From assembly GCA_903813345.2 (NCBI GenBank), contig CAIIXF020000003.1:29405248-29469247 (forward strand): a stretch of 64,000 nucleotides of DNA. Direction: 5' to 3'. Below the pieces are notes generated by a model. It was not told the DNA's origin, ran no database searches, and saw nothing but the letters and a program-made list of their open reading frames with translations. Positions 2,487 through 57,600 of this stretch are shown in pieces. Origin of the DNA: Owenia fusiformis. Taxonomy: Eukaryota > Annelida > Polychaeta > Sabellida > Oweniidae. Made by a program: the position numbers and the translations under genes. The stretch's first letter is position 1. Each line of letters begins with the position of its first letter.

Positions 2487-2640
2487 AACATCATTTTGTG
2501 CGAATAAGTGGAACACCTTGGAAGTGGATTTTTTTAATTCTCAAGATCCATTGATTTCATGTTATGAACATCTGTCAGTAGAACATTTGTGAACTCAATG
2601 GTATTCAACATGCAGAGGTTTTACTGTACACAGCCAATCT
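2487..2640. repeat. Pogo/Tigger-like terminal fragment (degenerate)
   Basis: This stretch carries GTGGAACACCTTGGAAGTGG at one side and ends with GAGGTTTTACTGTACAC. The same pattern (GGAACACCTCT, a 'gacttaat' core, then a GGTTTTACTGTA end) recurs near 35305-35450 and 57255-57405. TACAGTAAAACCTC-type ends are typical of pogo/Tigger DNA transposons, so I infer a small non-autonomous family of that kind. No transposase is visible. Confidence 0.45.
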
Positions 2641-2644
2641 CAAA

Positions 2645-2750
2645 CAGTACCGTATGGTACTGTTTTGGCTACTGCACCGTAAGGTACCATGATATACGGT
2701 ACCGTTTGGTACTGTAAGCTCAAACAGTACCATATGGTACCGTGATTTCG
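2645..2750. repeat. Cluster of GGTACC palindromic words
   Basis: ACAGTACCRTATGGTACYGT-type palindromic words occur about four times within roughly 100 bp, giving nested local dyad symmetry. This looks like a small palindromic repeat, possibly a degraded element end. Nothing indicates a gene. Confidence 0.6.
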
Positions 2751-3957
2751 GAGTGCGGATTGGGGGTGTATAGTTAGGCCTAAGAGAGGTCAGAGACCTT
2801 GCACATACTAATTCCATGAATACAAATATTTGATTTTTCAAATTCACAAAGTTTCAATTTATCTTTATAGGAAACCAATGCATTAACATGACCCTCTCAC
2901 TAGTTTTTGAACATGATTGCAAACCACTGTAACATCACTGAGTATTACACAATTAGACATAACTTTAACTAATACACTTTGAAATGATCAATCTCAGTGA
3001 ATGAAGTCTACATTACACAAATACTAACTGCAATTATTTTAAATGGATGCTCTAAGAGTAAGACCTTATATCCCATCACTGATACGAGCCCATAGCCAGC
3101 TTGAAGTCAAAGGGCTTAATTTCCCAGGGGAGAACACAATATGAAAAGAAAATGATTTTGTAGTGGAATATATCTACACAGATGCTTGTATTTGATTAGA
3201 TGTTACAATGCTTGTTTAATATAATACCGTAAACCTGTTGACTTGAATAATTTACTTTAACTCACCGATGATCCGATTCATGAATGCCACGAATCAATCA
3301 TTTTACATCACATGTCAAAATAAAGAAAAATCAATCTTTGAAGATTTCAGAGGAAATTGTGGATTAATCATGCTCTGCATGTACATACATTCCTACTGCA
3401 ATACTAACATACCAAGCTGTGTTAACAACTGCAAGGGGCAAAATGATAAAAAACACCACAACACCTTATGTAAATTCCTGATATCTTAATGACCATATGA
3501 GACATGTTTTTCCAAATGTAGACTTCAACAGGGAAGACATCCTCCTCGATCATAGTCTAAGTAATTAGAATGCATCACCAACAGCTCCTCATACATCACA
3601 TGGCACCCATCACATTGGGTAAGGGACGGACAGGCAATTGGATCCAACCAGTTTTAAGATAAAGATTCTGGGCCTAAATATATTGTTAAATTTGGATTGA
3701 AAAAAACAATTGAGATGCTTTTGTGAACTGAAACATGGTTGTTAGGTATCGAAATATTATGAGCATTGATAGTACAGACAGAAAATATTCTGGACTCAGC
3801 TGTTCATCAAGAAAAAACTCAAAAAGGTCACTAATATCTAGTGATCTCTCCTAAATTGCCTATACAGCTCAGTGTGATACTTTTTCAATTGGACAGCCTT
3901 CTTTCTCGCAAAGTATGACACAAAATATTCCACAGGTTCATTCATTGAAGCCATAAG

Positions 3958-6900: not shown

Positions 6901-9900
6901 TCACCTGGTGCTGATCAAATGTAACATTGGTGAAGACCAGTTGTTCTTTATCACATTTCTGTTTGGCTTGACATGCTTTCAGTAACATATGTAGCTTTTC
7001 ATGACTGCATACCTTCATGTCTGAAATTACACAAGATCAATATTGTACAATTATATTTAGAAATGCTTTCAGTAACATATGTAGCTTTTCATGACTGCAC
7101 ACCTTCATGTCTGGAGTTACATAGTATCAATATTACACAATTATATTTAGACATGCTTTTAGCAACATGTGTAGCTTTTCATGACTGCATACCTTCATGT
7201 CTGAAATTACATAGTATCAACAATTATATTTAGACATGCTTTCAGTAACATATGTAGCTTTTCATGACTGCATACCTTCATGTCTGAAAAATTACACAAG
7301 ATCAATATTGTACAATTATATTAGACATGCTTTCAGTAACATATGTAGCTTTTCATGACTGCATACCTTCATGTCTGAAATTACACAAGATCAATATTGT
7401 ACAATTATATTAGACATGCTTTCAGTAACATATGTAGCTTTTCATGACTGCATACCTTCATGTCTGAAATTACACAAGATCAATATTGTACAATTATATT
7501 AGACATGCTTTCAGTAACATATGTAGCTTTTCATGACTGCATACCTTCATGTCTGAAGTTACACAAGATCAATATTATACAATTATATCCAAAATGAATT
7601 ACTGCAACAGTGTTTATAAATATTATAATTATACAAAGAAGTATTAAAGTTTAATCAAACTAGATAATGGCAACTCCGCGGAGTAGCAAATCCCAACGAA
7701 CAAAATATCAATTACCGAATTCCAATCAATTATACTCATTACTTTGGTTAAAATTGAAAAAATTAGATTTTAGAATTGCGAATTCCTGCTAAGCAGCCAT
7801 TTTGAATTTTCTGAGGTACAAATCTGAAAAATAATACCATAATTGTGATCTACTCCAAAAATCCTTCAATTTGAGTATAATATAGCCATACTTTGAAGGG
7901 ATCGAAAAATTATTGCGAAATTGTACATTAGATGGCCATTTTGAATTTTACGAGGCTCGAATCAGAAAAAAGATACAATATTTGCAATCTACTCTTAATT
8001 GCCTTTCATTTGAGTATAATAAAGCTATACTTCAGAAAGATCTAAAAATTAGCGAAAATTTCTGTTTTCCTGACCCCCCATACAGGAGGGGTCAGGATGA
8101 AAAACACAGAATATATGTGAAATAGATAAATGTTGTGAATATACTACCAAAATTTCAAACAATTATATTAATTACTTTGGTTTAGAATGAAAAATTTATG
8201 ATTTTTGCGAAAAAGTCCCGTCATTTTTAAAGCGGCGGCCATCTTGAAAAAATTTTTTTTGCGTAAAACTATTCACCAATATACATCTTTCCACTAAATA
8301 TGAAGAAAATCCGTCTACTAGTATTTGAGTTATCTTCCGGACGGACAGACGGACGGACTGACGGACGGATGGACTGACTGACGGATGGAGGGCTTCACTA
8401 TATCCCTACCGAACTTCGTTCGTTGGGATAACTACGTTTTATAGAGAAGTATTAAAGTTTAATCAAACTAAGTTTTGGATCAAGCCCTTGTGCTCCAACA
8501 AGCCCACCTCTCCCCGAACATACCTCCATCCTTGATTGATTATTTAATCTAGTCATGCAAAAACCTCTTGTGTGCACAAGAAAAATTCTCTTAACTCACC
8601 CACATCATTTTGGAGAAGTGGGTAATGGGGAAATCAAATAGTTAATGCAAGAATAAATGAAGCTTTAAATGCTAACCTGTGTTGCTTTGTGTACTGAGGT
8701 GTCTCAAGGTCCATTTCTGACTGGCACAGGACACTTGTAGGATACTAAACTCTGCTATAGTACTGTCATGAATCTGAAATACATGAGAAATAAGAAAGAT
8801 AATCACAATTTGAGGAGCAATTTGGAATTAGATTAAAGAAAAGAATAAGGAATACAAACATTAGATTTTCTTTCGTTTCCTAAGATAAGGAATTAAATTA
8901 GATATTCCCTATTATTATGCAAACTTGACCTACAGAAAGAATGATTCTATGATTTTTTCCAAAAATTGTTTACATCTCAAACAAACTGAAAGATCTTACC
9001 TGATTAGCATTTTCAACTTCTAGAGCTATAATTGCACTGCTAAGGTCACGTGTGCCAGGAGTGACGCTACAAGATCTCAACGCCGAACATTTCAGGTTCA
9101 ACGACCCAACCGTGTATACAGATATACGTTGCCGTAGCAACCGATAGTTCAATTTTGGAACTTGCTGTGTTGGTTGGTAGAAAAATAGTAAGTCTATATC
9201 TTGTACCCCACTTGTTTTTGTACCTTGGAGCCACATGGACACCTACAGGAAGTAACAAATATTTCCCATAATGCAAGATGATAAGCATAAATATCATCAA
9301 ATAACATTATCCTTTTACTGAGGAATTATGTTGACTATCAATTAAAAATTGGATTCTACAATTAAATCATTGCCTCTTCATGACAAAATTTCCGATAACT
9401 GCCTCAATATGACATTAAATCAAACCGTGACGTAATTCTTCAAGCTTTATTCCCATTTACATCACTTCACTTACTTGTACACTCTCTCCAGTCTTCAACA
9501 CATCACCTTCAATAGGAATGTCCATAACATAAGATGCTGCATCGCCATTATGAAGAAACTCAGTCCCAAAATCTTTTGATGTCACTTTATATGTTCCATT
9601 TTCTGGGTCACGGCTTGGGGCCCCAAATGTCACAAGTTTAGGCTGGGCAGCCCCGACTGTGAGATTATGCAGGTCAACTGCCCCACAGTTTGTGAAGGTT
9701 ACGGGTATATGACGTACTTCCCCACAGAGTAATGTTGTTGGCATTTCAGTGAATTCCACCTGTAACATCAAAGTACAACTAAAGAATAATAGACTTGCTA
9801 GGAATCGGCACACATGATATTTTATCAGGGTGGCTAATAAAGAGAAATAAATGTTGCCTATTTGTGCTTATATTTTTTGCAAAAGCTGGGTAGCAAGCTC

Positions 9901-12900
9901 TGAATAAGCACCATATTTGAAAATAAATCACAAAAGAAACACTTGAATTTTCTGACTTCTCACTGTTCTACATTTTTAAAATCTGCTGAAATTTTGTAAA
10001 ACTTGAGCTTACCTTCAACTGTGGCATTGGTGGAGCCACAATGAGGTCTAGTCGTTTATCAGGTCCATACATACAAGTTGTTTTCTCTAGTTTGGTGGCA
10101 TTCAAACGTGGCCCTTGAGTCTCAAGCACTTGCTTGCCTCTCACACATATATTATTCTGATGGCCTGTCTTGTCTGAGTTCTGTCCAGATCCTAAGCTAT
10201 ATACAAGTCCTGTTATGGTCAGTTCCCCAGTCTGCTGTGGTTCAAGGCATAATGTCACCTAGAGGGACGATAAATAAAAGATGTCACCATAAAACCATAA
10301 AATATACAAAAACTGGAAACCATTCATTAATTTATCGATTTTTTGATAGGTTAAAATATTTTACCATAATCATCAATATAAATATTCAATGAAAATAAAT
10401 GCATATTTTAAATGACAAATAAACATCTCTATATAATATTGTATAATATCACAAGAATGATCAGTAATATACCATAAATGATCTACCTGTGTAGTTGTAT
10501 TCCCTGGTATTGTGATGTCATTCAGCACCTCTGTATGAACCAATTGGTCTGCTACGTTAGATTTCCCCCGTGATACCACCTCATTGGTGACTACTTCAGG
10601 CAGTTTTTCCTGGTTCTCCCCCTCCCTGGTATAGTCAATGGGCAATAGCTTCCATAGTAGTGTGACATCACTCAACAATAGAGGCACCTTTAGTGGGTTG
10701 TATAGGGGAATCTCCAAGGTAACTGGTTCTGTAATGAGAGAAATATAATGTAAATCCACCAATGAAAATTCAATTCACAAAATTCAATACTTCCCATAAT
10801 GCATCTTGCTCAATACATATTAATTTACATCAAATAAAATATTGGTGAACAAAACATTTACACTAAATTCATAAGACCCAACTGATGATAGAAAAAATTA
10901 ATGAGAGCTAAACGGAAAATGACTTGGAAAGATGCCACAACATTTGTCCCTGAACAAATCATTCATTGTTATTATTTAATATGGAATGGTAAATATGCAA
11001 TTTGGTTAGTCAAGTTGCACCAACCATAATCTACAATATTCATTCAGCAGTGCAACTTATTATACCTCCTTGAATGGCTATGGGACTAGATGAGTTGTTG
11101 GAGCGCCTAGAGAAACATTGTGGAGTTGTCTTGAAGGCTTCGTTAGGAATAGATTTGTTCACTAGGAGTTTCTCCAGTTGTATCCATTGTTTCTCACTAC
11201 TTTCTATAGGAGAACCATCTTTGTGAGTTTTACTACCTGGAACAACAAAATCACAGATCTATACAGGAGAATATTCTCAGAACAAGGCATTGACGTGACA
11301 AAATGTGACCACCTGATCCTAGTATTGTAAATTGTTAAAAAAGTGTAACAATTTGTTACAGATGATCATTGCTATCTGATCTAATAAATATGAATATTTC
11401 TCCAGTTCTGATTGGCTAGTCAAGATATAAATGAGCCACCACATATAGGATCTACCTACCAGTAACTATAACCTTGATGTCATTGCTCTTGATGTGTGGT
11501 AGAGGTAACACAGGCAACTTGTTGCTCTCACCACTTTCATTCAGGTGTTGCTGAAAAGAACAAGTAAAACATTGGGCCAGATGTCAATGACACATCACCA
11601 AAAGGAATGGCGTAAACGAAACAAAAGCCCTTTCATTCAAAGCCTTTCGTAGTTTATTTCTGTATTAAATGAATTGCTTTGCTGGAACACAGATGCATTT
11701 TAAGCCATTTGAAGGTGGAATGTTGTTTTTTACAAATACAATTGTACAAGTTTTTTAATGATTAAAATTAGAAGTCAAATATATACCTTATATACAAATA
11801 TATACTCTCGGAGAAAGCTGTGTTGCTGTGGTAATGATTGTTTACTCTCCCTGACAACAAGGTTCCGCAAGGCCTCAGTGGCCGCATCTAATTGTTTGAT
11901 GTTGAACGACTGACGGCCAATTGTAAAGTTGATGTGGTCCTGTAACATAAACAATAAGTGTATGTTGCAAAGGCAATCTTTTAACATGTGATATTCCCTA
12001 GCACACATCTATATCAAACAAGCAACTTCACAGCCCTATTGGTATTTCCTTCTTGAGCAGAGGTCTTATGCCCATAGGTATTTGAGTTATTGTCTGGACA
12101 GAAGAATGGAAGGACGAACAGACAGACGGACAGCTTTTCTATAGCTGTTTTACTGTATTACTATTATTTCTTTTTGATTTTTGTGTGCAAGAAATAATTC
12201 ATACATCCAAATAAAAGATGGCATTGTTTGCTACACTGATTGAAATGAAGATAAACGTTTATCAAAATAAATTCTCAGGTCGAGGGGTGAATTCAAAAAG
12301 TTAAAATTTTTCCTTTTCAAGGACAAGTCTCGGTTTGGAGAACAGTCTCCTGGGATAATAATTTTTTTATGAAAAATATAGAAATATCACCCAAATTAAA
12401 TTATGAATATTCAAAAGATGACATTGCATAATGTGTAGTAGACTTGTCTTTTTGAGATTCTGGTTATTTAGCCTTGTTATTTTTTCTTTTATTGCCCAGT
12501 TTATTTACTTTAAACTTATTAAACACTTCATTTGAGGTTTTTGATTTGCTCCCTTGTGGTACTAGTTCACAAAGTACAAACATGACAAAGTTAAAATTAT
12601 AATTAAGAAAGGTGCAGTGTATATGACTTAAAAATATATAGGCTACAAAATGGCAGCCGCTAAATCATTTATCAATGAATATACTGAACTGTTGATGTGT
12701 CCTATATGTCTAGACACAGTGAAGACACCAAAGTCACTAAAATGCCTACATTCATTCTGTGAAGGATGCTTGGGTGTATGAATTCAAGCTGAAAAGGAGA
12801 GTAGAAAAAAGACCTATCCTTGTCCAGTGTGTAAGTGTGAAACAGACATTCCAAATGGAGGTGCTAACTCGTATAGGACTAACTTCACCATGAAGTCATT

Positions 12901-15900
12901 GGCTGAAGCCCTGGAGAGAATCAAAGAACAGTTGAATGAATCTAGCATAAACTGTGACATCTGTGCACAAGGTAAACAACATACACATGCTGTATCCAGA
13001 TGTATCGAATGTGCTGAATATTTATGTGACACTTGTGACAAATGTCACGGCAGAATGAGATCAACGAAGTCTCACAAGCGTGTTAAATTGACTGGGGATA
13101 CTGAGAAGGATTCCAAGATTGCAATAGACAGTCTGGTTCAAAGAAATATTGACTGTACTGAGCACAACGACCAACCCTTAAAGTTCTACTGCAAGACTGA
13201 CAAAACCATTGTGTGTAGAGACTGTTGTATTACTGATCATTCTGGGCATTCATGTGTGAAAATTGAAGATGTGGCAAAGGAAGAACTACGCAATGTATCT
13301 GCATTGGTGGGACTAGCCATCCAAAGGAAAGATTTACTTGATAAGCAACTTAAAAACTCAGATGATTTGACTGGCACCACGGAGCAAAAACTCCAGACAC
13401 TTCTCAGTTCAATAAAATCAGATCGCAGAGCTATGATAAGTGAGCTTGACAGATACTTTAATAAACTAGAAAGGGATGCTAAGGAAGTGCATAATAACAC
13501 CCTGAAACAGATTAAATCTCAAAGAAGTGATTTAGAGCTACAGAGGGGCGTCACTGAGAGTACATTACTTCACCTGACCTCCGTACAAAAACATGGACAT
13601 CCTGTCGAGATAGTTAACTCAAGTGCTGATATCAAACAAACACTACAAGACTGGAGGTCACTGCCTTCAAGTGTGGACATTGAACATCATGACAAATATT
13701 TTGAGATTGGTACATACAAACCTGGCTACTTGGATGTATCTAAACTGGGACGAATTGTCACATCTACTGATAAGGTACATGGTAAAGCTTCAGCGACATC
13801 TTTACAATGTAAAGAAAGTCCAAAACCGTGTACGTCTAACTTATACAGAACTGAACATTTGGTAAATAAGATGAATGCATACAGTGCCATACAGGGTATT
13901 TGTGTTGGTGAGAATCAAAACATATTAGTAGTAGAAAACCATGACCCTCAGCTGATGCTTGTGACTTATGTAAACAATCCTAGAATGTTGATTCAAAAGT
14001 CAACAAAGGAAATCAACAAAGCTGGAGTGTGTACTACCAAAGACAATTGCTATGCTGTATGTGAAGAAACAAACAAATGTGTTGCTATCTTCAATCAAAA
14101 CTTGGTGCACCAGAGAAACATTGGCAAATTTAAATTTCCGGTCAATGTATGTATGAACTCTAAAGGTGAGTTGCTTGTTGCTGACAAAGCAGCCAAATGT
14201 GTGTTCATTATTGACTACAATGATGGCTCTATACTGGCTACAATAGGAGCTGGAATATTGGAGAAACCATTTTATCTCTCAACTAACAGAATATATTCAG
14301 TCATTGTATCAGATAGGCAGTGTGTAAAAATGTTCAACAGAATGGGAGACCTCATTAACAGCTATTGGCCAGAGAGTAGTGATGATAATCTATTTGACTG
14401 GCCAAGTGGTGTCTGCACTGATTCACTAGATAACATCATCATAGCTTACTATGCATACAACAGAATCAACATGTTGGACCCCACTGGGAAGTTTACAAGG
14501 TATCTCATGACCCCAAGGGACAAAGTACATTTGCCACGTGGACTTGCTATTGATCACAATGGTGACCTTTTGGTTGGTAGTGATTGTGGTGATCTCCACT
14601 TCATAAAATACATGGCTTATTCGTAATAGCAAGGATTCATGTTATTACTAATTATTAGTGTATGTACAATTAAAGGTCATGCGAAATGGTCATTTAAACC
14701 TAAAGGAAACAATTTCATTTAATAATGGATGTATTTGAACATGCCATCTTATTAATATGTTATATGTTATTAAATATAAATGTGGCAACCAGCTCACTCT
14801 ACTGAATGTGGTAGCTGTTTGATAAGCAATATTTAAATGTTATGACACATGTATATGATGACAACAATAGCACATTTTCTATTCATTTATACAAAAATCA
14901 TGCAGTTGCTATGACATAGTTAAGTATGATGTCACTGATCATGTGGGGCCCAATCTGACAGATCCGTTGATTTATTAACATTGGTATTAGACTCACGGGG
15001 TACCAACTATAAAAACATTTGTCCATCGGTGTGTCTGTTTTACCTTGTCTTGTCCATTATACCATGTATTAAGTTTAGTTTAATTTTTATGGGAGTAATA
15101 AATCAACAGAAATCACTCATCTTCAGATTTCAAAGACTCGACTCACTATTGAGGGCCACGAAAAAATTAACATTTACCCAGATAGTTTCTCTACAGTATA
15201 GTTACTTATTTCTAACAATGGACTGAATATGATGTGGCTCAAATCGAGATGGAATGCAAACCATATACTGAACCTAAACATTTACCCAAATATCTTCTCT
15301 ATAATTATTCGTTTTCTACTGCTGACCAAATGTGTTGTGGGTCAAGTCCAGATGGAATGCAAATCATACAGATCTTACCTCAGCTAGGGTCCACTCTCGT
15401 TCTCTATACACTTGTAGAGCCTGGTCATATGCCCTCAATGCGTGACGTCTCTGAGCAGCCTTGCTGAATCTGTGGCCTGCTAGGATCATGTGGAATGCAT
15501 ACTTGCGCACCATTGGTTGTTTACTGTTGATGTAGCAATGTGCCGCTTGTTCTAAGAGTAGCGCACTCCGTAGATCAGAGTCCTATAATAGGCAATACGC
15601 AACCAAATGAATAGAATATAAAATTGTACCAAATTAATAATTTATTCAGTATTCTTGATATAATTTTGATTGTGAATATCCATATCTGCACTCACCCACT
15701 ACACTGCCTTGTATGGATATATTCACAAATAAATCATAAATTATCCTATACAAAACCACTATCACCACATATAACAATACAATGTTTACCAAAGTAATGC
15801 CTAGTATAGTTTATAACACTTAATCGAATTTAAAAAAATAGACATGCACAAGAAATCTGAATTCCTAAAAGACATTACCTCACTGGTTAGTTTTATATAC

Positions 15901-18900
15901 TGCATAGCCGTCTCATTGTACAGGCCTTTACTTTTACATGCCTCTGTGCACAATAGAGTAGCCCGAGTGGCAAACAATGGGGATCTGAAATACAAGAGTA
16001 ATAATTAATACATGTACAATGTACTTCAAAAATTCGCAAGGGGAAATTCCTTTTAAGACCTTTAAGACACCTCATAATTGGATAAGATCTACTTTTTAGA
16101 CAGATTTGAAAAGGGTGGTCATTAGGAATATACAGCCACAAAATTATTGATAATAATACCAGGCTTATATTAAAGGCCTTTATAAGGAGAGGGGTAATAA
16201 ATCACTCGTGAATCAATTGTCTTCCCAGATATAAGATATAACATAAATACCACAAAAGTCAATTGAATCAATTAAATCAAATGTAATTCAAGATTTTCTC
16301 TACAAAATGAGCCACTCACTTGCAAGTGGTAAGATATGTTGATATTGCACTGTCCAAGTAATGTTGAGGGAAACTACGTTGACTTGTAGGACCTTGTAGG
16401 AAGACTGACAATGCTGCCATTTCCTGAAACATACAACATGTATTATGGATAGAATCCTAAAAGAATAATTGGCTATAACAATCATACAGTCAAACACATC
16501 ATATCTAAGATTAAAGATTATTTTGTAACTCATGCCTCATTTTTTATTTATTTACATAGAGACTGTATTTTTGCATAAGCAAACAGTTGCCTTCTCCCTT
16601 ATACAAGTAAGTGTAAAATAATGTTAAAAGAAGAAAGAGACATCTATAAAAGTCAAGGGATCCATAAGAGCAGCGACATCTACAGGGTGGGCCAAAATAC
16701 ACCTTTTTCGATATTTTCGATAAAAATATGATATGGATATTGAATACCAAATAAAAATCTACCCATATTATTGTGCATGTTCCATAGTTATGTGTATATT
16801 ACTGTAAATAAAATGGAGCGTACCAAAGAACCGGAAAAGTGTAGCCATGCATGGTCATTATTGAAGTCCTTCTTGGCTGTATGGTAAGTCTGGTATGCCA
16901 ACTCATACTGTTGAAACATGAAGGCAAGATCCCCTAGTCTTCTTAGTTGCATTTCTGGAGCCTCTGGGGTATATCTAAAACACGGCATAATCAAAATTGT
17001 TTCAGATGACTTTTTATCATTAAGAATATTTTATTCGTCTATATTTTACATTGGCATACATTATATTGATTTACAGTCAACAAAACGGATTGGACAAAAG
17101 TGTATTGCCTACACTTGCTAAACACAGACATGAAATATATGGGAAGGTTTGCATATCAAGTCTCTTGATATAACAAAGACATATTTGGCTAATCTTCAAA
17201 TGGTTAGAGATAAATGTCAGCACTAACAATAATTTATTTGTATTCAACAATGTACTTTGTGCACTCAAAGGGCATAATGTCAGGTATAAAGTTTAAGGCA
17301 CTATAAATACGATAAGGGAAATTCAGGAACAAATAGACACTTTATTTCTCTAATGATAAACACCCCTTCCACTCAAACTACAAGCAGAGATACATACACA
17401 ACAGTGGCATAATGTCAGGTATAAAGTTAGGCGCTATAAATAAGGTATGGGAAATTCAGGAACAAATAAACATCATTTCCATTCAAATTACAAGAGATAC
17501 GTACACAACAGTGGCTTTCTCTGTGGAGGTAGTCTGGCCCTGGGGTTTATTACCACTGAACCATCTCCGGGTAGCACCCAAGAATGATTTGTGAATGCCT
17601 TTTCTTGATGATATCTGGAAAGATTAAATATACTGTTTAAGGCTACATTTCAAAATCCACTTGCATGATACATGCACATATCAATTGTCATTAATATCGA
17701 CCTTTGTCTTTCCAGGAGTCCCAGATGCAATACGGATATTATTGTGTACATGAAAAAGGATGATACTGGCTCTAGTTTAATGCTTAGTCTATTTATTTGC
17801 TATGTTTACATATATAGTTCATATTATTATTAAACTGTTAGGATAACATTTCATTAGGATTTTTTCTGAAATTATACCTATATTTTAGTTTCACCAATTC
17901 TGACATAAAACTATCTATATCTGGTCTTAAGAAAGAAACTTGTACCAATTGAAAATCTCATTGACTATATTCAGTTTAACTGAATATACTGGGATTTTCA
18001 ATTGGTGCAGAGTTTTTTCAAATTAAGTGCCTGATTGGTCCAACGTTTTAAAAGATTATACATATAAAACATTGTTTCTTTCATGCAATACCTGATCATT
18101 CAGATTCCTCATTGTTCTCTCAGCCCAGGGCACCAACCCACGTATAATAAACTCATGTACAAAGATCCTCAACCTATCGTGATCGCTGACTGTGAGACAG
18201 GCCCCATGCTGCCCTGTGGATGAGGATTCTGGGAGGTGGGGGTCAGTGTAACTCTGTTCGGTTGAGGACTGGAGTGGGTTGTCTGTACCCACAGAGAGTG
18301 GATGCGATACAGACTCTTCTGAAAGAAAATTGCATGTTCCAATGTAAAATTCAATTCACAGAAAGCATACCATAATCTATATCCCTCAATTTGCATTCGG
18401 TCACCAAAATGGTCCTTCATGAAACTTCTTCATGTGTAGAACTCACTCTAATAATTGGTAAATAAATTCAGATGCTTGTACAAGAAATTAAAAATAATAT
18501 CCTACCTTCAAATGCCTCAGCAGCATCTTCTACCGATTTGACTAAGGGGTCTGTGGGTATAATTTTGTTTAAGGGGTCTCCAGAGGAGAATCCATCGGGA
18601 AGTCGTGTCAGGTCAGACACATGGTTAGCTAGGTCATAGTCCGAATCCTGAAACAAACATTAAATTATGGTATATCACCTTTTTAAATCCAGCATCTTGT
18701 TCACTATTGACATTTTAAAAGTACAATTAATGTTGGATTATACCATGGGCTTTCAATTAACATTCATAACAATTAAATGTTCTTTCAAAATTATAGCCCT
18801 CAATAAGTATCTTTTGAAGGTTATACAATGTGTTTTAATGTTGCATATACTGCAATTCAAACTTTAATTGAGATCATACATGCTTTTAATACGAACCCTA

Positions 18901-21778
18901 AAATCATTTGGTTTCTTTTGTATAAACTGTGCCCAGGGGTCAGGTAATGCTGCTCCTGTGTCTGAGTTTGAGCCCGGGGTAGATCCAGGGGTAGAATTTT
19001 GGGTAGATTGGGGAGTGCAGGAGTTGATCTGGAGCAAATGGCAGTTGTTCAGCCCATAGGTTGATTTCATGCTCTGGTATATAGCTTCTGCCCTGGAAAA
19101 GAAACAAAATGATATATCAAAAAAAATATTGCAGACATTCGCATTGATATGAACAATATACTTGTGATGTTCTCTATAAGAAATACTGAGTGATGATACC
19201 ACTTCTCAGAAAGAAGTCGCACAACTCTCTTTGGATACGTACCATCAACTTTCATGAAAACAAAATCATGGTATCCCAAATTACAATATTCTGACAAAAA
19301 TTCTCTGCAGCTCATTTAGAAAGATTGTGGACAAGCCTTTAGTATGAGTTTAGTATTGTTTATTCCTTAATTTACCACTATTAATTTCAATCACTTACTT
19401 GGCCTGTTCTGCTTCAGTCACATCATGTATAAGAACATAATAGTGCAGTACATTAGGGCAGAACCATTTAGGTAGCTTATTGGGGGACAAATGCTGTTGT
19501 TGGTGCTGTTCCTGTGTCATCTGATGGAATTGTGCCATAGGGTCAGTATTGCCACTAGACACAACAAACATACACCCCAAGTAATGCTTAGTGAACTCAT
19601 GCTCTGATGGGTACGCCATCTGGAGGAAACATTCCCTGTAGGCCTCAAACCAAGGTGTACTAGCTGAAATACACCAAATACATCAAACAAATGTTGCGAG
19701 CAAATAGTGACTGAAGACTCAGTTCTTTTACTTTTTTTCCTTGCCATGCCAACTTCAATGGTGTGTATAGTAGGTTTAAGTGTATGCAATGTGGTCGTTT
19801 GAGGTATGTATGTAAAGCTGAGGCCAAGTACTTTCTAAATGAGCCATTTTAAGAAAAAAATCGCAAGAATATAGTCCCGTAAACTGGAACTACTTTATTC
19901 GTTAATTTTCATCGGTGAAGCAGGGATTTTACCTGAAAATGAGTCCCTATGTTGGCGTAGTGATATATAAAAATCGAGACGCAAACCGTACGTTAAATAT
20001 AGTGTCAAGATGAAGGTTATGTATAGGGCAACGCAGAAATATAGTCATTGTATGGGCTAGTTCATTCGAAAATGGCGATATGTACCCCAGAACTTGAATT
20101 TTGTGATTTTTTTCAATATTTTTCAATGATTTACAGGAGTGACACCTAGACTCGCAAATTTAACTGGAAAATGGCTGGAGAAAAGAATATAAGAAAGTAA
20201 TAGATCTACAATACTGTTGATTTCCTGCCTATAATTTATTAATTTAAACGCAATGCTTTACCTGATAACTGGAGATCATATTTTCCGATAGAGAGGCAGT
20301 TACTTGATGAGCTATCTGTTGCGATATAGGCTGAGGCAACAGCATCATTCAGGATCTTTTTAGACAGAGTTGGTTGGGGAGGGAGTTGGCTCATGTCCCG
20401 AACAACCACTCGAAAATTCTGTAGGGTATGTGATATATTCCCAGGGTCTCTCACGTGAGCTGGAAAGATGCAATTTACATTTTACATAAGAGAAGCTGAA
20501 TCAGTGGGATATTCATTAGAATTTTTGACAATAGGCAAAACAATTAAAAGAAATAACAGGTAAAATTATAATTTCAACATGGGAACACATGCTATCTATT
20601 GCAAGACTTACGGCTGGCATAACCGTCACCATGTTATTCAGTGTTTTTAAGTAGCGCAAGGATCCTGCCATGACCGTGGTAGTGTTATCGTGTAAGCCTG
20701 GTATAACCATGACTACGCTGTATTATATTGCAAGGCCTGTCATGACCGTGGTAATGTTAAAGCCTGAAATGACCGTGACAATGGTTGCAATGCCTGTCAT
20801 GACCGTGGCAATGTTAAAGCCTGATATGACTGTGACAATAGTTACAATTAGGCCTCTAATGACCATGGTTGTATTAAAGTAGCAAGAGAACACCATAACA
20901 ATTTTCTTCGTGTTTAACTACCTTAAATATGTAAATCAAGACTAATATACATGTACATGGTACTCATGTTAATTGAGAAATAAAAATGTATATTAATTTC
21001 ACAACGAAACACTCATTTTTAACTCATGAATAATTTGCTAACAAACTATATCTTTACTCTCGGCATTCAAGAAGGTTCGATTCGAAAGCACATACATATA
21101 CTTTCTAAAATGATCAATCCATAAAAAAAACTAACAGCAACGGGCGAAACATGAAATAAGTCATAAATGTCATATAAAGAGGCTACGGTCGAGCCAGGCT
21201 CACACGATTACACTACCATGGTCATGGCAGGCATTGCAATATAACACAGCATTGTCGCGGTTATACCAGGCTTTCATGATAACAGAACCACAGTGATGGC
21301 AGGATCCTTGCACTACTTAAAAACACTGAATAACATGGTGACGGTTACGTCAGGCATAAGTCTTGCAACAGATAGGGTCTCCATGGAAACCTCCTGAAAA
21401 TCAACAGAAATTTGGGTAAAAACAACCTAAGTAAGTGAAATTACAAATAAACCATGGCATGTCAAAAAACATTGAATATTGTACTGTGGTTCTTTGATTG
21501 TTTATTTTAGGCTTGACTGACGCCCAAACAGTTGTACATTTACAATTTGCAAGAGGCCAGGGTTCTATATAATTCCCAATTAACTTGATCGTGTTGATCA
21601 TTAGAGATTGCAGAGACTTACCTTCTGTCCCTAACCTACAAAATGGTTGTATCAATTCAACAAATGTCAGGTTGTTTTTCTTGCAAACTTGTTCAGCATC
21701 ATGACTGCACATCCCCGCAACCATGGGACTAAATGCATCACGAATAAACTCTTGGGCAGATTGTTTACATTGTGCCAT
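3958..21778 (-). CDS. TRAPPC8: TRAPPC8: trafficking protein particle complex subunit 8
   Basis: Large subunit specific to metazoan TRAPPIII, which activates Rab1 in ER-Golgi transport and autophagy (family knowledge; yeast relative Trs85). I assembled 25 coding exons, all GT-AG with matching phases: 21622-21778, 20262-20459, 19399-19663, 18897-19092, 18506-18647, 18092-18318, 17505-17614, 16824-16974, 16320-16423, 15879-15984, 15379-15582, 11787-11939, 11460-11550, 11066-11236, 10487-10728, 10013-10258, 9475-9759, 9000-9242, 8677-8773, 6905-7020, 6362-6553, 6091-6195, 5756-5904, 5002-5088, 3958-4219. Total 4299 nt, 1432 aa, against about 1435 in human. The start is MAQCKQSAQEF. Landmarks include STPWFEAYRECFLQ, MVRKYAFHMILAGHRFSKA, DHINFTIGRQSF and VRGKQVLETQGPRLN. 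The exon 4 donor (AGG|GTTCGT at 18897) is weak and is the least certain boundary. No frame is broken. A CRE lies upstream, and a TRIM gene sits antisense in the 11940-15378 intron. Confidence 0.97.
6969..7590 (-). repeat. Tandem array copying a TRAPPC8 exon start and its 3' splice site
   Basis: Seven copies, about 83-91 bp apart, begin near 6973, 7063, 7153, 7236, 7327, 7416 and 7505. Read on the minus strand, each unit has a pyrimidine-AG acceptor, the first ~50 nt of the exon ending at 7020 (ACATGAAGGTATGCAGTCAT), and intron sequence. Only the copy at 6969-7020 continues into the rest of the exon. Copies are nearly identical, with copy 3 the most diverged, so the expansion looks recent. Each unit also holds a possible internal donor, AAG|GTATGC. 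Confidence 0.9.
7663..8444. mobile_element. Non-autonomous element flanked by a 26-bp direct duplication
   Basis: Identical 26-bp sequences at 7637-7662 and 8445-8470 bracket this 782-bp insert. Near its ends the insert carries the inverted pair TCCCAACGAAC (about 7690) and GTTCGTTGGGA (about 8420). It includes a run of GACGGACGGA-type short repeats at 8338-8390. A related fragment with the 'tatttgagttat' and 'gacagacggac' words sits at about 12070-12140. No coding capacity is seen. A 26-bp duplication is too long for most cut-and-paste elements, so the class is open. Confidence 0.75.
11940..12649. other. TRAPPC8 intron, part upstream of the nested TRIM gene
   Basis: Non-coding for TRAPPC8. 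It holds a small relic with GACAGACGGAC words at about 12070-12140, related to the element at 7663-8444. The last few hundred bases before 12650 must contain any promoter of the nested plus-strand gene. I see no clear TATA box or CpG-rich block there. Confidence 0.5.
12650..14626 (+). CDS. Nested intronless TRIM-NHL-like protein with in-frame TGA in the RING
   Basis: Probable E3 ubiquitin ligase of the TRIM family, cytosolic by family. From ATG 12650 the frame encodes a RING with all eight C3HC4 ligands (C17, C20, C32, H34, C37, C40, C58, C61), but codon 44 (12779-12781) is TGA. Past it the frame is open to TAA at 14624-14626. It continues with a B-box 1 (C102 onward, CDICAQGKQHTHAVSRCIEC), a B-box 2 (C169 onward, CTEHNDQPLKFYCKT), a coiled coil at about 215-305, and a propeller-like C-terminus at about 390-655 with NHL-type strands (GELLVADKA, NGDLLVGSD). 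Length is 658 codons plus stop. Without readthrough, the first in-frame ATG after the stop is 12890 and gives a RING-less protein of 578 aa. It has no introns and lies antisense to TRAPPC8, suggesting a retrocopy or the intronless TRIM class of invertebrates. It could be a young pseudogene, a nonsense allele or an assembly error. Confidence 0.85.
14627..15378. other. TRAPPC8 intron, part downstream of the nested TRIM gene
   Basis: Holds the 3' side of the nested gene and TRAPPC8 intronic sequence. There is an imperfect direct repeat of about 110 bp near 15170-15360 ('acatttaccca', then 'ctctacagta/ctctataatta', then 'gatggaatgcaaa'). No further coding exon is recognised. Confidence 0.5.
19997..20150. 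mobile_element. Fragment of the DNA element also present in PSMD7 intron 1
   Basis: The words ATAGTGTCAAGATGAAGG, ATATAGTCATTGTATGGGCT and CGAAAATGGCGATATGTACC occur here and again at about 50250-50340. The following AACTTGAATTTTGTGATTTT is contiguous here but about 470 bp further on (near 50812) in the PSMD7 copy. The two are copies of one family that differ by an internal indel. This copy lies in the TRAPPC8 intron between exons 2 and 3. No coding sequence is seen. Confidence 0.8.
20592..21375. mobile_element. Foldback element with long inverted repeats in TRAPPC8 intron 1
   Basis: The left end, CTATCTATTGCAAGACTTAC, is the inverted match of the right end, ending CTTGCAACAGATAG. The pairing continues inward through CACCATGTTATTCAGTG and AGGATCCTGCCATGACC for at least 150 bp. 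The left arm also carries internal repeats of TGCCTGTCATGACCGTGG and AAAGCCTGAAATGACCGTG (20680-20870), which give a spurious open frame. The element is non-coding and about 784 bp. I found no clear target duplication. Confidence 0.85.
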
Positions 21779-43769: not shown

Positions 43770-51503
<7,734 letters not shown>

Positions 51504-51638
51504 AATTTATAGATTATTATCCACTGAATATAGTAGAAAACAATCAAATTTCAAAATTTTGTTTCCGATGACTTTCAATTTTTCAATGGCGGCACCGGCG
51601 GAAGCGGAAGCAGGTGGCGCCCTCACAAAACAGAAAAC
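51504..51638. promoter_or_regulatory. Bidirectional PSMD7 / WRNIP1 promoter
   Basis: Only 135 bp separate the divergent start codons. The WRNIP1-proximal half contains CAATGGCGGC (about 51584-51593, a YY1-type core) and GGCGGAAGCGGAAGC (about 51598-51612, two ETS-type GGAAG cores). The PSMD7-proximal half is AT-rich without a clear TATA box. This is the usual architecture of paired housekeeping genes. The start sites themselves were not determined. Confidence 0.7.
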
Positions 51639-54600
51639 ATGGACTGTCCGATATGTTCTCAAACTTTTCCCGTTTCCTCTTTAGAAGAGCATGTTAATGA
51701 ATGTTTAAATGTTCAGGACAAATCTATACCTGTTTCTGATCGAGATGAGCAAAGTAACGATGTTATCAAACCTGCGAAACGTCAGAAAACGAGTGCTCAA
51801 AGTTGGTCATTTTTAACAAGACCAAACAAATCTGACAGCTCAGCAAGTTCTTCAAAAGATTCAACAAAAAGTACCACCAGTCAAAATAAAATACATCTTA
51901 CAAAAGACAAGCAGACTGGTAAAAATACCAGTGATATGAATGATATCGGAGTGCTTACATCTCTGAAAACAACACCCTTCAACGATAAAGTTAATGGCGG
52001 GAAATTCAAACATGAATTTGTAGAGAAAACTCTAAATACAAATAAACACAGAAAACATATGGTCAATGATCATGTTCCACTTGCTGAAAAGATGCGACCG
52101 CTAACATTAGATGATTATGTGGGCCAAGATCAAGCAGTGGGAAAGAACAAACTTTTGCGCTCTTTGATAGATGCACGAGAAGTACCATCTATGATATTCT
52201 GGGGACCCCCAGGATGTGGAAAAGTAAGATGTTTGGCATATAAAATGATTTCAGTGTAATTACCTGAGTTTTGGTCTAGTTGCTCATAGATCCGGAGCCA
52301 GATCCATCCCCTATTGGAAGTAGGCTCAATGAATAAATAAGAAGATCGGACCATGGGCTCGGACACAAGCCAAAAGTGGTACATCCAAAAAATGACTTCC
52401 CTAAAACATGACCCTCGTACTGACCTTTATCTTTACCATTTCTCCTCAAACATTGAGTGATCAATATTTACTCTGTAATCTCTTATTCATGTATTAGTTT
52501 GAATGGTTACATGATATTGATTATTGACGCTGTAAAACCCGGGACAATAACGCAAATGCGAGTAGGTAGTTACCAGTTTCACCACCAGGTGGCTCACTCG
52601 GGTCAGATAGCATGGCGGGTATAGTAGAAAGTTCCCTTTAACTTAAATTACATCTGTTTTAGTGATTCAATTTTCATATAGCCATTATGTATCGAATAGT
52701 TATGCAAATTAAAGTATGTCCAGTAAAAGAAAATGTTATATGTCCAATACAAGAAAAGATATTTCACTTTTTGTGATTTTGTAATATGGGGTCTATGGGA
52801 AATCAACCCGAACTAGAGGTCACATTTTCAAAAAAGATTAAATTTTCAAACTTGAGAAACAATTTTCGAGACCATATTTTTAGATGTATTTTTACATGTA
52901 GATTTCAAATATGACATCACTTCGACTGAATTTTGAATATTAAATGACGTAAATCAAGATCATTTCTACTCGCATCTAGTCTATTGTTTCAAATTTTCAG
53001 AGCGTAAAGATAATGGAGTGTTTCGGTAATTTCTGGCAGTGTCCGATGTTGTTCATCTCTCAAATTACGTCACATCGCAACAAACAGCCAATGAAAGTTA
53101 AGGATCGCGTAGCCTAACAAAACATTGTTATTGTTTCTACAGGAGTTTAAGAAACATCATGGGATTTCTTTGTAATCTCTGATGTGACGTCATCCTTGAG
53201 TGGTGTCACATTCTCAGAAAAGACTCCAAAATCAAATAATATAAATTTTCCGAAGATTTTGTGTCTTGTCCTTGAGTATATTCATTGAGCCTAGACACCA
53301 AGAAGAGGTAACTGGTAGAGGTCTGTGTAGTTGCCTATGTTTTAAGCATATATAAGAAAATACAACCAAGAGTTGGTGACCCCCGAGTTGTGATCAGTAT
53401 TTGGCATCGATGTCTGTAACACATTGTTTTGTAATTTCAGCCTAGTTCTTCACATTTCTTCATGTTAGAAGGCCTTATTCGTTTTATGACCCACCACGCT
53501 GAATATATATCTCTCTTTTAAAATAACTTATAAAATATTTGTAACCTAAACCTTGAATTTGACATAAGTGGAAAGACCTTCACAGCCTCATACAATTTGA
53601 AATTCCACATTTGAAAATGGGTAAAATGATTCTTGTTATGCAATGGAAGATACCTCAAGAAAAACCAGAGATTGCTGAAGATTTGCTTTACAAAGTTGGC
53701 CGAAGATAACACGAATGTGAAAATTTTAGAAATGCACTTTGATTAATAAATATTATGTTCATTTCTGGCTTGTTAACCAATATCATAGCTTGTTATTCCA
53801 CATCAATATAAACGAAGATATATGGAATATGCTAACATCAATTAAAACATCAGAACGACGTGTTATCGAAAACTAGCTGGTGAAAAGACCAAATTTGGTT
53901 GTATGGGCGACCTTTGGCTGCATGGCATCAATGGCCCAACCTAGGTTGAATGGAAAAGGTGCTGTCCCATTGAAAACATGTTACTTTTCCAGACTACACT
54001 AGCCAGAATCATATCTGAGAACACCAAAGGAGGAAATGAGTATAGGTTTGTGAAGCTCTCTGCCACAACATCTGGTGTTGCAGATGTTAAAGAAGCTGTG
54101 AAGCATGCAAAGAATGAGTTGAAGATGTTCAAGCGGAAGACAATTCTTTTTATAGATGAGATCCATCGTTTCAATAAACTTCAACAGGTAAAAGTATATT
54201 ATATTATTATGCACCTCATTAAAATACCCAAATCTGTTTGGTTAAGAGCTGCAGGATCTATTGCCATATGTGGCAGCAAGATCTCGTTCTATCCCGTATC
54301 TTAGCAACAAGATCTCCAACCATCCCATGTGCCAGAATATCCTCGAAACAAAATACTAGGCTAAGCTTCTGTTTTAGTAAACCCATTCTTTAAAATAAAG
54401 TATTTCTCAACGGAGGTGCATAATGAAATGAATACTGGTTGACCATGAGGTGGATATGCCAGAATACCTACATGTATCCTCGGATAGGTATTCTGGCATA
54501 TCCACCTCATGGTCATCCAGTATTTGTTTAATACAGGGTGACCCAAAAAACAGAACCTCCAAAAATGAAATAACTTTTTTAATACATGTGTTAAAAATCA

Positions 54601-57600
54601 GCTTAATTTTTCATGTATAATACAAGATAATATCATATAATATAATGTTTTGATTGAAATTTAATGTAATTTGGTACCTATTCTAATTAAATTTTCACTT
54701 TTGTGGAATTAGGGTTATGGTGTATTACCAGTTATTTTAGATACATGTACATGTGTGTAATGCATTTATAACTCAATCATAACATCATCATCTTTTTTCA
54801 CAGCATTATACATGATACAACCTATATGGACTTTTTGAACGACTTATATTTGAATTTCTCACTCTGGTTTCACTCCTTGGAGTTTCATTCTTTTATTCTT
54901 TTAGGTGGCCGTTAATCTCATGCCTTTTCAGCTCACATGACGGCCAATAATATTAAATATGCCATGTTCTTCTTCATTGTAGGATACATTCCTCCCATAT
55001 GTCGAAGATGGCACTATTGTGTTGTTAGGGGCAACCACAGAAAATCCATCTTTCCAATTGAACACTGCCTTACTCAGTCGTTGTCGGGTGATTGTTCTGG
55101 AGAAATTATCTACTGATAGTATCAATAGCATCCTAAAGAGGGCTCTCAGACATTTAGGAGTTGACCTCCTTGCTAATGTTTCCTCGGTACCCTCTGAATC
55201 CATTCCACTGGAGGAAAGGTACAAGCTAATGAAAGATAGGGATATACAATCAAATCCGATTCATGTTTTTTTTAAAATGAAGCTTGGCATTTTCGATTTT
55301 ACATTCCCCTAAATAACACTTTATTAATGTTTTAAATTTCTTTCAGGCCAAAGGTGTACATTGCCCAAGATGCACTGGATACACTTGCCTGTTTTTGTGA
55401 TGGTGATGGGAGGAGTGCTTTGAATGGTCTCCAAACTGTAGTCAATTCAAGGTACAGTAGTTCAAGTACAAATCAAATAAAGTTGAGTCATTATAGTTTC
55501 CCATACTGTGGAGGTCTCATGGTCAGGCCCCTAGCCAGGGGGGTCGAACCCCCCTTGGCTAAAAATTCTTTCAAAATCATGCAGTTATTCACCATTCTGA
55601 GACATTTTCAATTGATTTTTGACAAAAGTTGTCAAATGTGAAAGGTGACCCCCTACCTCATTATTGCTTTTTGCATATTCAGTATTTTAGTCCAATCATG
55701 GGCATTCAACTAATGCCCATGGTCCAATTGTTTTAATTTTTTCACAATTTACATTGATGTTAGATCCAAAAATAGCGCATCATGGCAACAGTAGTCCTAT
55801 TGTCATCTTTTTTCCATACAATGAGCCTTTAAACTTTAGAATACTAGTAATAAAAAGTAACACTCTTAGGAAATGATCAGAAAATAGGTTAGTCATATTG
55901 ATAATGTACAATGTTTTTTATGTAGGAAGGCACATTTCAACAGCAGTTGTATATCAACACCTAAAGCCAGGAGTAGCAGTGATGGCGACAAGGAATGTGA
56001 TGTCACAAAGGGATATGTAATTGTGAGAGAAGATCATATTAAAGATGGCCTCCAGAGATCACATATACATTATGACAGGGCAGGTATGTTGGAGAATATG
56101 TCTATTCAAGGGGTAGTACTATGCATAGTTTGGAAGAACAACAGATCAAATAATCATTGAAACATATAACTCACATACTCAATCAAATATTATACAGAGC
56201 TTGATTTACAATAATATTGAGGCGAGAAAAAAATAACTCATGGAGAAAAAAGTAGGGGTGGGACGGATAACCGAAGTACCGAAAAACTGCGGTTCATAGC
56301 CTTCGGATCGGTTTTCGGATCACGGCCCTACTTTCGGATCAGCTTTTCGGATCGTTTTCGGATTAATATTTCATTGGTCAAGTATCAATAAAACAGTTAA
56401 AAACACTGTTTTACAACAACATTTTTGATATTCCTAGTCCCTACCTTGTCTGTCTTGTCTGTTGCTAGCTCACTCGTTTACTAGATTCGTTTCGTATCCG
56501 CGTATTCGTATCCCTCGGTAATCAATCATGTGGTCCCTGGTACTATATTTTTTAGTCGTGTATTCTAAATAATATGTATTGTTCATGAAATACTATAACA
56601 TAAAACTCCATCTATAAAATATTGTTATAACGTGGCATAATTGATACAAAGATTTGCGCAAATTTATATTTGCGCAGGTTCGATATAGGGTATTATTTTG
56701 TGCGCACCCACAATACATTCAAATATGGCGTCTGGATCTCAAATTCCCGTTTTCCCAAAAGAAATGAAGATTAAGAAAGTGACAGTCAGCAGTTAAGTCA
56801 GAGACAAAGCAGCTAATCATGTCAATCAATTCAAATCCTTAAAATGAATGAACCGAACCGAAAAAAACCGAACCGACGGCTGATGATCGGAAAAACCGAA
56901 CCGAACTGAACCGAAATGAACCGTCCCATCCCTAGAAAAAAGCATTTGAAGTTCAGAGATCTTTAGTACTCCTATGTTCTTTTAATTATCATCACCCTAT
57001 CCTATGACATTGTGAAATCCAAGATACATTAATTGATTCCGAAATCGTAACTTCATGAAAGCTTTTGTTAATGACCCCCCTAGGATTCAATTCCTTATAT
57101 ATTAATCTTCAATCAGAAATTCTGAAAGATTATTGAACACTTGCAAATAGTAATGCCGAGATGAAGATATTATGAATGTTTCTATCTGTCTCTATACTGT
57201 ATTAACTGTATTTCCATTCAATGATAATGTGAAATGTATATGAGTACAATTAGGCCTGTAAAGTGGAACACCTCTGTAAGTGGAACACTTCAAAATTCCA
57301 TGACCAACAGACTTAATGTTAAATGAAAACGTAACGTAAAACTCTGTAAGTGAAACACCTTCCAGAGGTACCAAAGGTGTCCCATTAAAACAGGTTTTAC
57401 TGTATACAGGGCGTTCATAATGTTCTTGCAAAAGTACTCTAATTTTTTTGTTTCTCAACAAAAAAAGTTACAGCCAGATTGACTGAGATACAAAAGTTTT
57501 AGAGCACTTTTACAAGAACTTTATGAACGCCCTGTATATTGTATATTTTATTAATTTTAGGGGAAGAACACTATAATATAATGTCAGCACTTCACAAATC

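Follow-up and report, generated by a model that had tools for sequence, protein, structure and literature searches.

The window (the whole stretch of DNA analysed, 64,000 nucleotides) carries on its forward strand a TRIM gene whose reading frame is interrupted by one in-frame TGA. The features of the gene and its host locus are these:

9460-21745, reverse strand: TRAPPC8-like host gene, whose exon matches (PF12739, PF24544) flank the TRIM gene
12210-12217, forward strand: altered TATA-like box, a consensus match, AATAAAAG versus TATAAAAG in L002 and L003
12650-12778, forward strand: codons 1-43, the N-terminal part of the RING with ligands one to six (translation; Pfam zf-C3HC4 36.1 bits for this piece alone)
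12779-12781, forward strand: in-frame TGA, codon 44; TGG in the 15 paralogues compared
12782-14626, forward strand: 614 codons (remainder of the RING, B-boxes, coiled-coil region, NHL repeats) and the terminal TAA (translation, Pfam)
12890-12892, forward strand: in-frame ATG (codon 81), from which, by frame reading, a RING-less frame of 578 codons might start
13142-13264, forward strand: B-box zinc finger (Pfam zf-B_box 36.1 bits, cut-off 24.1), residues 121-161 of the 614-codon frame
14129-14209, forward strand: top-scoring NHL repeat (Pfam), residues 450-476 of the 614-codon frame

Translation from ATG 12650 places the TGA between the sixth and seventh RING ligands, and all eight ligands are encoded (C17, C20, C32, H34, C37, C40, C58 and C61); codons 45-658 then run without a stop up to the TAA at 14624-14626. 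An earlier note on this DNA had described this arrangement, with its eight ligands, the TGA at codon 44 and 614 open codons beyond, and our translation agrees with it throughout. With the stop read as X, the RING scores 38.1 bits against Pfam zf-RING_UBOX (cut-off 25.2), its actual translation being broken by the TGA. The NHL repeats (PF01436) reach 40.3 bits against a cut-off of 20, inside the range of 18.7-51.2 bits found for the four relatives tested; the first B-box region gives a sole match, to ANCHR-like_BBOX, at 17.7 bits, under its cut-off of 27, and the coiled-coil region matches PF25600 TRIM_CC at 13.5 bits, under the cut-off of 30. By sequence, the solved structures that best match the window RING are the RINGs of TRIM2, TRIM3 and TRIM56, in line with a TRIM-NHL protein.

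Matches to TRAPPC8-like exons lie on the reverse strand on both sides of this gene: PF12739 at 16827-16973, 18074-18265, 19389-19682 and 21632-21745, and PF24544 (TPPC8 third Ig-like domain) at 9460-9867 (E 1.3e-5, under the curated cut-off). From this disposition the TRIM gene (12650-14626, forward strand) appears to be nested, in antisense orientation, in an intron of the TRAPPC8-like gene. Elsewhere in the window, a MitMem_reg domain at 43773-44096 on the reverse strand marks an exon of another cellular gene, and frames resembling WRNIP1 at 51537-55641 on the forward strand are presumably exons of another cellular gene as well; at 60608-61689, open frames of short repeated units on both strands have the look of a tandem repeat. 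Upstream of the TRIM start, positions 12319-12425 share 93.5% identity over 108 bases with the flank of another family member, L005, and are apparently part of a dispersed repeat. In the related genes L002 and L003, an exact TATAAAAGATGGCATTGG lies about 410-420 bases upstream of the ATG; the window has AATAAAAG in the same block, the first T of its TATA-like box being changed. The 18-base block (at most four mismatches) was found upstream of the window gene (L001), L002 and L003 only among the 28 loci scanned; a TATA box as a family feature was therefore rejected, since a block at 3 of 28 loci is uninformative on the others.

Relatives were drawn from the window's own assembly (498 Mb, 525 contigs). 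Three intact paralogues, L002 (C5), L003 (C1) and L004 (C6), share 74-76% protein identity with the window gene over the 614 codons and 84-85% DNA identity across the whole frame, so the long open stretch beyond the TGA is not there by chance. No frameshift separates the window gene from these three; a private in-frame deletion removes two codons of its NHL part. A second copy or allele of the window gene in the assembly was considered and rejected, as nothing above 85% DNA identity occurs among the matches listed. At the site of the stop, every one of the 15 paralogues whose RING could be placed in frame has TGG (Trp), which indicates a TGG-to-TGA change in the window copy. The same column holds Tyr in TRIM2 and TRIM3 and Leu in TRIM56; Trp is thus typical of this paralogue family and not of all RINGs. 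Some members have departed from the common layout in other ways. In L008 (C6:38859790-38863818), the linker after the coiled coil consists of many tandem copies with a 96-base spacing (locus positions 2531-3878) within an open frame of 850 residues. A RING piece, L017 (C6:30085557-30085760, reverse strand), lies ~14 kb upstream of the B-box-to-NHL frame of L005 (C6:30069717-30071423, reverse strand), which suggests that a large insertion or a gained intron may have parted the two halves of one member. Long B-box-to-NHL frames with the RING undetected in the same frame are present at L019 (C10) and at L020 and L027 (C8); the start of L027, which has one stop, closely resembles that of L020.

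Selection on the window gene was estimated by maximum likelihood with a purpose-written codon model for the window gene, L002, L003, L004 and L014, with the stop masked and with alignment columns missing in the window gene removed beforehand; the alignment also contained L008 (first 388 codons), L013 (387 codons) and L015, which the codon models left out. Omega is 0.59 on the window branch (95% range ~0.41-0.87) versus 0.31 elsewhere, and raising it there improves the fit by a 2dlnL of 9.3 on the best of 15 trees (p 0.0023) and of 10.4 on a star tree (p 0.0013); the leading trees are apart by only ~1 log unit and do not fix the branching order. Applied to the three sister branches in turn, this test gave omega values of 0.31-0.36 and no improvement. 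The earlier note had proposed comparing dN/dS before and after the stop with that of the paralogues: codons 81-658 are under weaker constraint on the window branch, and codons 1-80 are not significantly relaxed (omega 0.24-0.27 versus 0.19 for the rest, p 0.64-0.76; two trees). The contrast with the rest is strongest over codons 81-380 (0.72-0.74 versus 0.25, p 0.005-0.012; two trees), and in the NHL part omega is 0.64-0.66 versus 0.42-0.43 (p 0.11-0.12; two trees). Over codons 81-658 the window branch has an omega of 0.63, which still differs from 1 (2dlnL 4.4-5.1, p 0.02-0.04); this sub-neutral value can stem wholly from the time before the stop, although it need not. Branch-wide, omega is likewise below 1 (2dlnL 6.2-7.4) yet above that of the relatives, with the reservation that a single terminal branch is indivisible at the point where the stop arose.

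Where the other four genes are invariant, the window gene has 32 private changes in 347 residues, compared with 20/335, 14/329 and 20/335 for the sisters. The excess sits in the NHL part (23 changes versus 5-10 in the sisters), with runs at 573-582 and 600-607. By mean BLOSUM62 (0.04, versus -0.14 to 0.42 in the sisters), it is not evident that these replacements are the more radical ones; together with an NHL Pfam score within the relatives' range, this argues against a picture of simple decay.

The open frame itself limits how long the gene can have evolved without constraint. At a kappa of 1.9, 4.2% of random substitutions in the window gene would create a stop, and the lack of a further one in 614 codons bounds unconstrained evolution at no more than 0.038 substitutions per site (95%), or 26-29% of the terminal branch; bounds based on freedom from indels were dropped in view of the private two-codon deletion, and the stop-based bound alone was used. 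The earlier remark that this is not what an old pseudogene looks like is thereby upheld. To explain the raised omega by itself, a neutral period would have to take up 42% of the branch (range ~15-78%); since this point estimate exceeds the bound, some of the acceleration is probably older than the stop. Either a neutral period took up ~15-29% of the branch or the speed-up preceded the stop, and in both cases the stop is late.

How unusual a lone stop is can be judged from the family as a whole, which was sampled by scoring 72 of 384 candidates: 104 matches were merged into 72 gene regions, 62 of which span the query from residue 60 or earlier to residue 595 or later. A stop falls inside a match in seven gene regions. 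In L024, L026, L027 and L028 it is the only in-frame stop of an end-to-end frame within a single unbroken alignment; three of them have a TGA in the NHL part, and L026 has a TAA in B-box 2. Left out of this count were L025, whose stop is the natural end of its frame, L013, with two stops, and L016, which has a frame change besides its stop. Counting the window gene, exactly one in-frame stop in an otherwise open frame is thus seen in 5 of 62 end-to-end members, with the qualification that the query started past the window's stop, so that RING stops of other members could escape that search. A separate search with the RING gave three matches with an internal stop among the 150 listed, the window's included; given this low number, and with the other end-to-end single stops lying elsewhere, RING-specific truncation as a recurrent device was rejected. 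If five stops were placed at random over 658 codons, the probability that at least one falls in codons 1-80 would be 0.48. The rarity that the earlier note had implied for one stop in about 658 codons thus did not hold up: the anatomy of the window gene is ordinary for its family, and stops at differing codons and in differing domains are more in keeping with redundant genes arising and dying than with a programmed site.

Several other origins of the TGA have to be weighed. One base separates it from the TGG of the paralogues, and an error of sequencing or assembly in an intact gene would suffice to produce it. The stop is, however, one of four private substitutions within the 12 bases of codons 41-44, three of them in the 9 bases that precede the stop change, and a single base-call error would not yield such a cluster; error would also leave the independent signs of weaker constraint across the whole gene to be explained. 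The other single-stop members in the same assembly speak against it too, though a general error rate would fit them as well, and we regard error as very unlikely. The cluster is at most a mild anomaly: with 8 private substitutions in the first 80 codons, one so tight arises in 1.6% of uniform reshuffles, and four-in-12-base clusters occur elsewhere in the window gene, while L004 has one of seven. Gene conversion may have been the source of the four changes, in that TTG and Gly at codons 41-42 are common to L013, L014 and the window gene, but L013 and L014 are without the rest of them. The stop could also be real and yet bypassed, by readthrough or by A-to-I editing of UGA to UGG, so that a full-length ligase is made and the gene is a pseudo-pseudogene. 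A lone stop with the frame open beyond it and RING codons not significantly relaxed speak for this, and Drosophila offers documented cases in which such genes are read through, as the part of a review devoted to it describes (PMC5615767). Against it, dN/dS is raised on the window branch. The RNA around the site folds in an ordinary way (12650-12910, z -0.63; 45 of 200 shuffles fold as well or better), a hairpin of 8 bp being predicted with the TGA in its loop, and the stop site lies outside all 22 inverted-repeat pairs listed for 10500-17000; for these structural reasons readthrough or editing driven by a hairpin was rejected. ADAR enzymes disfavour a G before the edited A, and G is the base that precedes the candidate A here; TGA followed by A is not known to be a strong readthrough context. 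In the window, no Rfam family, SECIS included, reached its gathering threshold, and the only matches with E at most 5 in 12000-16500 are two non-SECIS ones at chance level; selenocysteine was rejected because SECIS was not found and the paralogues carry Trp, not Cys. With ordinary folding and no SECIS, the suggestion of translational readthrough in the earlier note gained no positive support, and we would give bypass of the stop very little credence.

The earlier note had also raised a RING-less regulator made from ATG 12890. Re-initiation or leaky scanning would yield a RING-less TRIM-NHL protein that acts as an adaptor or as a dominant regulator of the intact paralogues; the 578-codon frame has an A at -3, L019 and L020 have long B-box-to-NHL frames in which a RING is not detected (upstream exons are possible), and RING-less TRIMs are known elsewhere, as set out in the relevant section of PMC6993854. 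A ribosome would, however, meet seven ATGs between 12650 and 12890, one of which, ATG 12855, has good context in another frame and opens a 12-codon frame that ends in overlap with ATG 12890. The codons that such a product would use (81-658) are under weaker constraint than in the paralogues, and in the rest of the single-stop members the interruption falls in the NHL part or B-box 2, so that no common design which removes the RING emerges. All 8 members aligned have the Met at 12890, and the more distant L007 and L009 lack it; it is thus an old residue of that branch and not a start gained for a RING-less product. The proposal therefore lacks positive support, and we consider it unlikely. One can speculate further that the gene works as a switch or pseudo-pseudogene, in which the bulk of translation would end within the RING, while low readthrough or re-initiation at ATG 12890 would supply a ligase-dead or RING-less TRIM-NHL protein that joins the intact paralogues and tempers them, single-stop members recurring in the family because such decoys would be useful; we judge this decidedly unlikely.

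A recent nonsense mutation, one of the options in the earlier note, is favoured by the TGG in 15 of 15 paralogues, by the raised omega and by the other single-stop members, and from the sequence we think it probable that a recent TGG-to-TGA change has made this TRIM-NHL copy a segregating null or a young fixed pseudogene. In this process, codon 44 of one copy of a large TRIM-NHL family would have mutated recently from TGG to TGA; translation from ATG 12650 would yield 43 residues and break off between the sixth and seventh RING ligands, and a working RING ligase would no longer come from this start. The outcome would be either a null allele that still segregates in the population or a young pseudogene that is already fixed, in a copy that was presumably redundant and probably under weaker constraint before the stop arose. 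The disabling change relative to intact relatives is directly visible, and beside it stand the excess of changes at conserved residues, the two-codon deletion, the altered TATA-like box and the omega of 0.59. The sub-neutral omega over codons 81-658, the unrelaxed RING codons and the NHL score within range count against a nonsense allele. We infer from the whole that the window copy has lost its function, that the stop is recent and that redundancy made the copy dispensable. Lone stops in otherwise open frames recur in this large dispersed family, and such a stop alone is no proof of recoding; should several such alleles segregate, the family would let the loss and gain of TRIM genes be watched.

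Among known cases, zebrafish ftr52 belongs to an expanded TRIM set and has a premature stop in the N-terminal region that encodes its RING; according to the passage on this gene in PMC3137616, the stop was found in a spliced transcript, and every product obtained from several fish, belonging to two strains, contained it. The window gene is, by analogy, a new example of the ftr52 kind, sharing the place of the stop and the expanded TRIM set; ftr52 differs in having RanBD/CypA C-terminal domains and, as that passage reports, an observed transcript. The mammalian genes TRIM15 and TRIM31 are comparable in that some species have them whole and others have them cut short by stops or frameshifts, TRIM15 having premature stops in mouse and rat; as far as the section on these genes goes (PMC2533329), it is the C-terminal SPRY that is lost there, while in the window gene the RING is affected. 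The olfactory pseudo-pseudogene Ir75a of Drosophila sechellia, as the portion of the review that treats it relates (PMC5615767), likewise comes from a large gene family and is intact but for one premature stop; its stop is read through and its function has been demonstrated, in contrast to the raised dN/dS of the window gene. TRIML2 and TRIM16, like the putative product of ATG 12890, have no RING, but they are established RING-less proteins in the account given in part of PMC6993854, and the window gene still encodes a RING.
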